In this document: positions 45,550 through 48,305 of the stretch, piece by piece
How positions within the stretch are numbered: the first letter of the stretch is position 1
Layout of the letters: each line of letters opens with the position of its first letter
NCBI GenBank assembly: GCA_963205385.1
Contig: CAUJKE010000311.1
Span: 1-57,468, forward strand
Source: Planctomycetota bacterium
Lineage (GTDB): Bacteria; Planctomycetota; Planctomycetia; Pirellulales; Pirellulaceae
Length of the DNA stretch: 57,468 nt
Reading direction: 5' to 3'
Program-made: the position numbers and the translations under genes
Notes under the pieces: generated by a model
Database searches by the model: none
What the model saw: only the letters and a program-made list of their open reading frames with translations
Told to the model about the DNA's origin: nothing

Positions 45550-46875
45550 ATGAGAAATATTTTGGCACTCGCCAGCGTGTTGCTCGCGCTCCTGACGCTG
45601 GCGCCTGCCGCGGAGGCGGTGGATGGCCGCACCGCTGCACCGGGTTTTGACTGGTCCGCGGTGGACTCTCAGCCGGAGCAAGCTGCGTACATCTTGAAAC
45701 AACTGCAAGCGTGGCGGACAACTAACGAGCCGCGCGCCGGCCGGTCGCTGCGCGTGGTCTACTTCGTCCCCCAGGATCGCGAGCAACAACAGGATCATGC
45801 CCAGCGGTGGGATCGAATCATGACCGATATCGAGCAGTTCTATCGCGACCAGATGGGGCGACTCGGCTACGGCGACGTCACGCTCTCGCTGGAACGCGAG
45901 CACGGCAAGCTCAAATTGCATGAAGTGCGCGGCGCCGCGAAGGACGACGGCAGCTACAACTATGGCTCAGGCGGACGCATTTATGGCGAAGTCGTGAAAG
46001 CGCTCGCCGAGGAGGGCATCGACGCGAACCAAGAAACTTTGCTGATCGTGTGTGGGCTATCGAAAACCGAAGATCAGAACGTGACGATCTACTCCCCTTA
46101 CTACGGCATGGGGGCGAATCATACCAAGGGAATCTGCTTCGTCGCTGATTCGGACTGGCTTTCGATTGACGGCCTGAAGCCGGCCGCTAGCGGTACTACG
46201 CTGCAGGTCAAAGAGCATCGTGGCTTTGAGCCGTTCACGCTGCCGCGGTTTAACACGACTTATATCGGCGGCACGATCCACGAGTTGGGGCACGGGCTGT
46301 CGCTGCCCCACAACCACGCCACCAGCGAAGAAGCCAAACTGGGCACCGCGCTAATGGGCGCTGGCAACTACACCTATCGGCAAGAGTGGCGTAATGAAGG
46401 GAAAGGTTCGTTTCTCACCCACGCCCATGCCATCCGGTTGCTCGTGCATCCAGTGTTCAGCGGCACTTCGCAGCGAGCTAGCGAAGCGCCTAACATGCGA
46501 CTGCAAGAAGTAAAGCTGTCTTATGAGGACGGCGAGATTCATATCCGTGGCAATCTCACGGCGGACATTCCCGCGATCGCCATGCTCGCCTACAACGACG
46601 GCGAGAACGCTGGACAAAAGGGCTACGCGGTGAACAACGACTACGACGCCACCACGTGGGTCTCCGTCATCAGCCCCAACAACGAGTTCTTCGTACGCGT
46701 CGGCGACTTGAAGGACGGCAATCATGAACTTCGCCTGATTAGCGTCCACGCCAACGGCGCCGTCGTCACTCATCGTTTGCATTACAGCATGCAGGGCGGC
46801 GTGCCGGATTTCGAAACGGCAAACAAGGAGATCGCCGCGATTGTGGCGGCGGACGCGGCGAAGCCGGCGAAGTGA
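45550..46875 (+). CDS. Exported metzincin-like zinc protease
   Basis: This protein of about 441 residues starts at an ATG at 45550 (a GTG directly before it is in frame) and has a signal peptide ending PAAEA. The zinc motif HELGHGLSLPH lies at residues 244-254, giving three His ligands (244, 248, 254) and catalytic Glu245. A Met-turn candidate, Met269, is in GTALMGAGNYTY. The residue three after the second His is Ser rather than the metzincin Gly, so it is an atypical member. A C-terminal beta domain follows (VKLSYEDGEIHIRGNLTADIP, VRVGDLKDGNHELRLISVHANG). It would act outside the cytoplasm; the substrate is unknown. Confidence 0.75.
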   Translation: MRNILALASVLLALLTLAPAAEAVDGRTAAPGFDWSAVDSQPEQAAYILKQLQAWRTTNEPRAGRSLRVVYFVPQDREQQQDHAQRWDRIMTDIEQFYRDQMGRLGYGDVTLSLEREHGKLKLHEVRGAAKDDGSYNYGSGGRIYGEVVKALAEEGIDANQETLLIVCGLSKTEDQNVTIYSPYYGMGANHTKGICFVADSDWLSIDGLKPAASGTTLQVKEHRGFEPFTLPRFNTTYIGGTIHELGHGLSLPHNHATSEEAKLGTALMGAGNYTYRQEWRNEGKGSFLTHAHAIRLLVHPVFSGTSQRASEAPNMRLQEVKLSYEDGEIHIRGNLTADIPAIAMLAYNDGENAGQKGYAVNNDYDATTWVSVISPNNEFFVRVGDLKDGNHELRLISVHANGAVVTHRLHYSMQGGVPDFETANKEIAAIVAADAAKPAK

Positions 46876-47369
46876 CGGGAAGTTCTGTGATGTGGGACTT
46901 CTGGCGCAAGAGAGTGTATCGCCAACCGCACGTGTGTAACGACTGAGGGGCGATCGATCGATATGTTTCCGATTTTCACGTGGGTCAAAAGATCACGACC
47001 CCATCCGCCTTGTGCGGATGGTGAGCGAGATGGTGAGCTAGTAGCCAGATGCACCAACATCACGACCCCATCGGGCTCGGCCCGATGGTGAAGAAGTCCT
47101 GTGGGCTACCGGCGCCACGCGGGGATCTTCAGCTAAGGAACTCATTCACCATCCGCACAAGGCGGATGGGGTCTAAGAAATACGAAGCGGCAACGCAGTT
47201 AGCTCACCATCTGGTTCACCATCCAGACGAGCTGGATGGGGTCCGGGAAGCCGTTCGGGGCAGGCCACAGATCAGTATCCAAGTGTCACGCAAGTCGCGG
47301 CGTTCGTATTTACAAGACCAGAACGTTATTTGCCGGACGCCTCTGAATCCATCTCAGCGGAGCCTCCCA
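46876..47369. other. Intergenic region with hairpin-repeat cluster
   Basis: Almost 500 bases between the protease and the phosphoesterase. The cluster of four hairpin units at 46997-47243 fills much of it. The frame of the phosphoesterase is open back into the cluster, but the Tat signal sets the start at 47370. Confidence 0.6.
46997..47243. repeat. Four 29-base hairpin units in two inverted modules
   Basis: Units lie at 46997-47025 and 47064-47092 (forward) and 47145-47173 and 47215-47243 (reverse). Each follows GACC, CCATC, three variable bases, a five-base loop, three complementary bases, GATGG, TGA. Stems are eight base pairs. Inner pairs are CGC/GCG, GGG/CCC, CGC/GCG and CAG/CTG, with loops CTTGT, CTCGG, CTTGT and CTCGT when read in the same direction. 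Between the units of each module sits AGATGGTGAGCTA (47028-47040), whose inverted copy is at 47200-47212. The whole block therefore looks like an inverted duplication of a two-unit module. No T-runs follow, so these are not ordinary terminators. Confidence 0.85.
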
Positions 47370-48305
47370 ATGGCCAACATCAACAACAGCAACGACATCC
47401 AACTGGGACGAAGGGCGTTTCTCCGAGGGGGAACGCTCGTGCTTACGGCGGCGGCCCTTAGTTCGCGACAGTTGTTAGCAGCGGACGACGCTCGCCCGCT
47501 GCGCGTCGGCCTCGTCACCGACTTGCATTACGCGGATAAAGCGCCAGCCGGCACAAGACATTACCGGGAATCGCTGACGAAGCTCGCGGAAGCCGCGCGG
47601 CAGTTCGAGCAAGACCAGCCGACCTTCGTGGTCGAGTTGGGCGACTTGATCGACGCGGCCGACTCCGTGGCGGTTGAGCAGCGCTATCTGAAGACGATCA
47701 ACCGCGAGTTCTCGGCCATCGGCAAGGACCGGCATTACGTCTTGGGAAATCATTGCGTCGACACGCTCACAAAAGAGGAGTTTCTCGGCAGCGTCCAGCA
47801 GGAGAAATCGTACTATTCGTTCGACCGCGGCGGCGTTCATTTCGTCGTGCTGGATGCCTGCTTCCGGAGCGATGGAGAGCCGTATGAGCGCAAGAACTTC
47901 AAGTGGACCGACGCCAACATTCCCGCGGCGGAACTCGAATGGCTCACAGCCGATCTTAAAGCCGCCGACGGTAAAGCCGCCGACGGTAAAGCCAACGACC
48001 AGCCGGTGATTGTCTTCGCCCATCAACGCCTGGATGTCAGCAACAACCATGGGGTGAAGAATCATGCCGAAGTGCGCAAGGTTCTGGAAGCTTCAGGCCG
48101 GGTGTTGGCGGTGTTTCAAGGGCACAGCCATCAGAACGATGTTAAGGAGATTGGCGGGATTCACTACTGCACGCTGGTTGCGATGGTGGAAGGCTCCGGC
48201 GAGGAAAATAGCGGCTACTCGCTGCTGGAAATCGAGCCCGGCGGCAACCTCCGCGTTACCGGATTCCGCAAGCAGAAGAGTCATGCCTGGGAGCGGCGGG
48301 GATAA
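47370..48305 (+). CDS. Tat-exported calcineurin-like metallophosphoesterase
   Basis: This 311-residue protein has GGAG before the ATG at 47370. A twin-arginine signal (LGRRAFLRGGTLVLTAAAL) shows export in the folded state. Phosphoesterase motifs in order: TDLHYAD (Asp51, His53), ELGDLID (Asp92), VLGNHC (Asn127, His128), VFAHQR and QGHSHQND. These ligate two metals and hydrolyse phosphomono- or diesters. A 15-base tandem repeat encodes AADGKAADGKAND before the VFAHQ motif and adds a small lysine-rich loop. The physiological substrate is unknown. Confidence 0.88.
   Translation: MANINNSNDIQLGRRAFLRGGTLVLTAAALSSRQLLAADDARPLRVGLVTDLHYADKAPAGTRHYRESLTKLAEAARQFEQDQPTFVVELGDLIDAADSVAVEQRYLKTINREFSAIGKDRHYVLGNHCVDTLTKEEFLGSVQQEKSYYSFDRGGVHFVVLDACFRSDGEPYERKNFKWTDANIPAAELEWLTADLKAADGKAADGKANDQPVIVFAHQRLDVSNNHGVKNHAEVRKVLEASGRVLAVFQGHSHQNDVKEIGGIHYCTLVAMVEGSGEENSGYSLLEIEPGGNLRVTGFRKQKSHAWERRG

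Follow-up and report, generated by a model that had tools for sequence, protein, structure and literature searches.

The window, a stretch of 57,468 nucleotides from a Planctomycetota bacterium, contains four hairpin units between positions 46997 and 47243, exactly where the first-pass annotation had placed them. The units occupy the gap between two open reading frames (ORFs), the first ending near 46875 and the second with a probable start at 47370. The order of the units is + + - -, so that two modules face each other within a longer element, the features of which are as follows.

46997-47024, plus strand: hairpin unit 1; GACC foot, CCATCCGC, loop CTTGT, GCGGATGG, TGA
47037-47040, plus strand: GCTA, candidate cleavage motif, 15 nt 3' of stem 1
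47064-47091, plus strand: hairpin unit 2; GACC foot, CCATCGGG, loop CTCGG, CCCGATGG, TGA
47105-47108, plus strand: GCTA, 16 nt 3' of stem 2
47130-47133, minus strand: GCTG, a variant of GCTA, 15 nt 3' of stem 3
47146-47173, minus strand: hairpin unit 3; CCATCCGC, loop CTTGT, GCGGATGG
47200-47203, minus strand: GCTA, 15 nt 3' of stem 4
47216-47243, minus strand: hairpin unit 4; CCATCCAG, loop CTCGT, CTGGATGG
about 46943-47341, no strand: whole repeated element, half A plus inverted half B, from blastn against a second copy (L083)

A long ORF called from ATG 47049 (47049-48305) passes through hairpins 2-4; the metallophosphoesterase-like, Tat-signal protein encoded here more likely has its true start at ATG 47370 than at ATG 47049.

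Each unit follows the layout GACC, CCATC NNN, CTNGN, NNN GATGG, TGA. The constant ends, outer stem and CTNGN loop described earlier are all present, and the unit measures 28 nt, with a stem of 8 bp, rather than the 29 nt originally given. From unit 1 to unit 4 the inner pairs are CGC/GCG, GGG/CCC, CGC/GCG and CAG/CTG, three types among four units. Exact matches to CCATC-N11-GATGG in the window are limited to these four units; when one mismatch was allowed we found 6 matches versus 2.0 expected, a number reached by 1 of 100 shuffles. As single-stranded DNA, the four units folded with z-scores of -4.2, -3.7, -6.0 and -2.5 relative to shuffled sequences, in each case more stably than almost all of the shuffles. 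The modules had been read as an inverted duplication: they do face each other, and the outer units have AGATGGTGAGCTA in common, but the halves are a similar rather than an identical pair. Half A consists of a left end of 54 nt followed by units 1 and 2, and inverted half B of units 3 and 4 followed by a right end of 98 nt. In blastn comparisons with fetched copies, 46943-47341 was 89% identical to copy L083 and matched over an equal extent in L081, L105 and L108.

We found that the unit is abundant elsewhere in the same genome (G000). In the 6.03-Mb assembly, the core CCATC NNN CTNG NNNN GATGG has 198 exact matches, compared with 0 for reversed-pattern controls. Complete ++-- elements recur (for example L059, L063, L081, L083, L105 and L108), and the repeat also occurs as ++ pairs, solitary units and head-to-tail arrays. 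Copies adjoin unrelated genes, and of the 96 exact units fetched, 86 fall outside ORFs of 150 aa or longer, though such ORFs span 75% of the loci. To measure compensation we used 118 inner triplets from units collected without any pairing requirement: 110 paired, whereas re-dealing the 3' sides gave 38 on average and never more than 54. The excess over reversed controls and the triplet pairing together rule out chance. A set of 38 distinct units, hand-picked and with relatives included, behaved similarly: 98% of its pair cells were standard (75.5% after shuffling), double changes numbered 63 (20.6 after shuffling), and two-sided changes affected six of the eight stem pairs. None of 500 shuffles reached the covariation score of this set, and slid registers collapsed. 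From these results, we conclude that the family is real, dispersed, mostly extragenic, under selection and REP-like. The proposal that stem changes are compensated is borne out, and the unit, which is also present in other Planctomycetota, is far from being confined to this locus.

Units of the GGG type form a subfamily in this genome, with an upstream block of their own, GATTATTAGCCCCTCTGCGCAA, and head-to-tail arrays with a period of about 70 nt (L026, L054, L057, L075, L085, L086 and L087).

The functional unit comprises the GACC foot, the 8-bp stem with its CTNGN loop, 15 nt, and GCTA. Of 92 units in the window's genome, 65 have a GCTA at 15-16 nt on the 3' side of the stem. The same motif stands at 15 (or 16) nt in 41/94 units of CAMDEA, 24/31 of CAMATH and 16/22 of CAMDPX, and at exactly 15 nt in 12/30 units of G028; the 3' spacing is thus found in each genome examined, while GCTA on the 5' side stands at a variable distance, mostly 31-38. 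The conserved tail that leads to GCTA is the shared AGATGGTGAGCTA noticed in the first-pass annotation, and in many solitary copies similarity spans foot to GCTA and ends there. The foot has the consensus GACC (variants GGCC and GCCC), preceded by a variable base. What stays constant across the family is the foot, the outermost pairs, the loop and the 15-nt ruler; the inner stem changes and still pairs. Because the E. coli enzyme TnpA_REP cuts between C and T beside REP palindromes (PMC8266576), the CT of GCTA is a candidate cut site.

A dedicated transposase or hairpin-binding protein had also been suggested, and a transposase gene was found in relatives, though not in the window's own genome. 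In assembly CAUJKL (L212/L265) an ORF lies exactly between ++ and -- hairpins. A transposase gene holds the same position in L266, with a layout as in L265, and in L267 the gene lies between two elements. Bracketing of a Y1 gene by cognate palindromes was seen in L265, L266, L268, L277, L278 and others. The units at L268 and L278 have the same foot and tail, with a loop that is partly of 4 nt; those at L269, L270, L271, L274, L275 and L277 differ in their stems, which are fully compensated, and have a loop of the same type and, about 15 nt downstream, [AG]CTA. Within the close tandem clade, all 11 members with intact flanks have cognate hairpins within about 150 bp, the exception being L276, a fragment at a contig end. 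As a control, we inspected 64 other distinct Y1 loci drawn from genomes that contain the hairpin, and found units only at L300 and L317, where they stand some 900 bp away from the transposase gene. Ordinary Y1 transposases, with 0 of 64 distinct loci having units within 150 bp, were rejected as the partner. Of the two distant relatives, L272 has arrays of GCCGCCCG-cttgc-CGGGCGGY on both sides, with CTAG after a further 15 nt, and L279 has no such hairpins nearby.

In the window's genome, which is 97.6% complete, we found no Y1 domain at Pfam level and no match to the clade profile; G028 and G046, like the window's genome (G000), contain many units, with no close cognate gene found. In a search of 392 genomes of the phylum, the profile matched 3, one of these weakly. 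A gene could have been missed in the window's genome because repeats break assemblies and many copies lie at contig ends. None of 35 plasmid records covers 80% of the query, the plasmid matches listed being single-domain IS200 TnpA proteins aligned over the C half. We infer that the window's copies were made by a transposase member that is now absent or unassembled. Since the gene sits between the ++ and -- halves in L265 and L266, the window's element corresponds to the gene-less form: on sequence grounds, the window holds what appears to be an orphan copy of a short mobile-element relic.

More surprising is what the relatives contain. Their likely partner enzyme is, as judged from its motifs, a Y1 transposase in which two domains are fused and the active site is divided, so that each half alone lacks part of the site and only the two together would be able to cut DNA. 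The protein is about 260-300 aa long, and Pfam finds Y1_Tnp twice in most members. We aligned the halves of 12 proteins separately with 17 single-domain Y1 proteins from hairpin-containing genomes. The HUH histidines are present in 17/17 controls; C halves keep the first in 12/12 and the second in 11/12 (it is lost in L270, which reads DHLP), and the motif is absent from all N halves of the 12 proteins. The distribution of the catalytic Tyr is the reverse: 17/17 controls and 12/12 N halves have it, compared with 2/12 C halves, these two belonging to the most distant members, L272 and L279. Similarly, the catalytic Gln is found in 16/17 controls, 12/12 N halves and 0/12 C halves. Several proteins end before the Tyr-helix position of the C half. 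The clade motifs are D/N-H-x-H (DHLH) and Y[ILV]xxQ, and in a comparison of the clade profile with the solved TnpA structure 2ec2, the HUH part is matched by profile positions 157-231, and the Tyr helix by positions 93-133. A structure model of the fused protein made without an alignment had a pLDDT of 38, too poor for geometry. The N halves group together in the tree (support 0.84), as do the C halves (0.97), and the similar way in which the two groups branch suggests a single old fusion. In IS608, each site combines the HUH of one subunit with Tyr127/Gln131 of the other, in trans (PMC5934647). The simplest reading of the alignment is that the fused protein is a single-chain dimer that would retain one of two composite sites.

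Our data favor a model, which we consider highly probable, in which the cluster is a non-autonomous REPIN/BIME-like element whose hairpin ends, in the form of folded single-stranded DNA, are recognised by a Y1 HUH transposase related to IS200. The unit would fold on the strand exposed as single-stranded DNA, and the enzyme would bind the GACC foot, the outermost CC/GG pairs and the CTNGN loop, requiring of the inner stem only that it pair. Cutting would occur at GCTA, 15 nt 3' of the stem, with the ends joined through phosphotyrosine, and pieces running from foot to GCTA would thereby be moved, tandemly repeated or inverted. The enzyme would act as a fused dimer with one composite site, to which the C-terminal half supplies the HUH and the N-terminal half the Tyr/Gln, much as the trans site of the IS608 TnpA dimer is composed. 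The more specific proposal, that in one lineage of single-stranded DNA transposases the enzyme turned into a single-chain dimer with one composite site, each half lacking what the other provides, and that it drives REP-like repeats of its own, which have GACC as foot and are cut at GCTA 15 nt 3' of the hairpin, seems to us fairly likely.

E. coli TnpA_REP appears to be monomeric, and in IS608-type enzymes two active sites are shared between two subunits. A natural single-chain dimer with one composite site, if it is one, would test how many active sites single-stranded DNA transposition needs and whether they act in cis or in trans. The repeat family, for its part, offers a clean natural experiment on the hairpin features that such enzymes read.

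One alternative is that the repeats are canonical REP/RAYT sequences (class 2, TnpA_REP) whose foot has drifted. REP, BIME and REPIN sequences with their RAYT genes (TnpA_REP, REPtron; PMC6006769, PMC3116915, PMC3733652, PMC8266576) are likewise short, high-copy, extragenic palindromes, dispersed singly or as inverted pairs, with variants that differ in the stem, and there too inverted copies bracket a single-copy Y1 HUH gene; the C/T step near the hairpin, here a candidate taken from the fixed-distance GCTA, is a further likeness. However, the 5' foot of REPs is GTAG (GT[AG]G) rather than GACC, and the four-hairpin ++-- element and the rigid GCTA 15 nt 3' of the stem set the present family apart. 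The transposase differs as well: it has two fused domains, a split active site and a YIxxQ rather than a YIxxNP motif, and the clade proteins score at most 23 bits with the NCBIfam profile REP_Tyr_transpos (NF047646), the cut-off of which is 80. We therefore regard drift from the canonical family as unlikely. By behaviour this is, as far as sequence can tell, a REP/REPIN system, as the first-pass annotation had surmised; by foot and family profile it is not a member of the GTAG class.

A less probable alternative is that the host maintains the hairpins as regulatory or structural DNA or RNA, such as terminators, mRNA stabilisers or sites for nucleoid proteins, the link to a transposase being historical or incidental. 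The units are indeed strong hairpins and mostly extragenic, and REPs elsewhere have such secondary roles (PMC6006769). Against this idea stand the patchy occurrence (5 of 397 genomes of the order), the placement of copies beside unrelated genes, the dedicated Y1 gene bracketed by the same units, and the rigid 15-nt GCTA tail, which is no feature of terminators; we consider it improbable. A family of structured non-coding RNA genes would explain the compensated stems equally well, by selection in RNA, but is very improbable given that no Rfam family scored above its gathering score (only chance miRNA models were returned), that units lie on both strands and also as inverted pairs, and that a bracketed single-stranded DNA transposase gene predicts folding as DNA. 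A CRISPR-like array was ruled out by the stem variation and the inverted repeats.

The nearest described relative may be class 3 TnpA_Y1, a comparison made with the class 3 description only. Class 3 is rare, occurs mainly in Planctomycetes, and comprises one-domain proteins of about 178 aa with NHVH and YV[VI]xEQ motifs and a CnGA foot (Quentin et al. 2018; PMC6006769). It resembles the present system in its Tyr-Gln motif of class 1 type and its high-copy, atypical flanking hairpins. In contrast, the proteins described here have two Y1 stretches in about 260-300 aa, with DHLH and Y[ILV]xxQ, and their foot has the consensus GACC with a variable base before it. The IS200/IS605 TnpA proteins (IS608, ISDra2) share the Y1_Tnp domain, the HUH and Tyr/Gln chemistry, the hairpin with a 5' foot and a site common to two subunits (PMC5934647). 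Those enzymes have two identical subunits with two active sites, the complete HUH and Tyr/Gln being in one domain, whereas here one chain with one possible site has them divided between its halves. Similarly, their LE and RE hairpins lie on one strand, while L265 and L266 show the inverted-symmetric order ++, gene, --; and the gene, unlike that of class 1, is not multiplied. With the IS200 profile NF033573, the cut-off of which is 55 bits, four of the eight proteins scored 59, 61, 55 and 93 bits, and the others stayed below the cut-off. Among open-licence papers we found no description of either the tandem Y1 enzyme or the repeat, in keeping with the earlier view that the sequence family is undescribed; Quentin et al. 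discarded unexpectedly long proteins, which they put down to gene fusions or annotation errors (PMC6006769).

Two further sets of tandem-Y1 loci deserve mention. G407 and G408 are rich in CCATC-type units, yet the stems that bracket the tandem-Y1 genes there (L269 in G407, L270 and L274 in G408) are of other kinds, namely CCTCC, CCACTGAG and CCACCGAG; this leaves two readings, a single enzyme that serves more than one stem type, or loss of the cognate gene. In G028, a second, distant tandem-Y1 gene (L272/L286, G028:C26, about 740-2390 of L286) is flanked by head-to-tail arrays of GCCGCCCGcttgcCGGGCGGY with a period of about 65 nt and CTAG 15 nt downstream.

Within the order, the 26-base pattern of the unit is present in 5 of 397 genomes and reaches high numbers in G000, G028 and G046. 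It also occurs in scattered other Planctomycetota assemblies, and isolated matches elsewhere look like chance. The ++-- layout is found in another family of the order as well. Among viral contigs the unit is rare, being present in two (L233 and L234), one of which holds a + - pair. We found neither an empty site nor a target duplication, and orthologous loci compared between genomes gave none usable. A MITE, with its terminal inverted repeats, would be expected to have precise ends and a target duplication; in G028, copies terminate at GACC on both sides. Together with the copy number, the unrelated flanks and the patchy distribution, these ends lend indirect support to mobility of the repeat. 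The gene copies L265 and L266 occupy one site, with 80% identity over 3.9 kb, and for this reason the gene itself seems not to have hopped recently, a pattern to be expected of a REPtron-like resident gene that acts in trans, and not of a mobile IS. In both assemblies, the transposase element of L265 and L266 lies between genes resembling tadA and tadB of a pilus operon.
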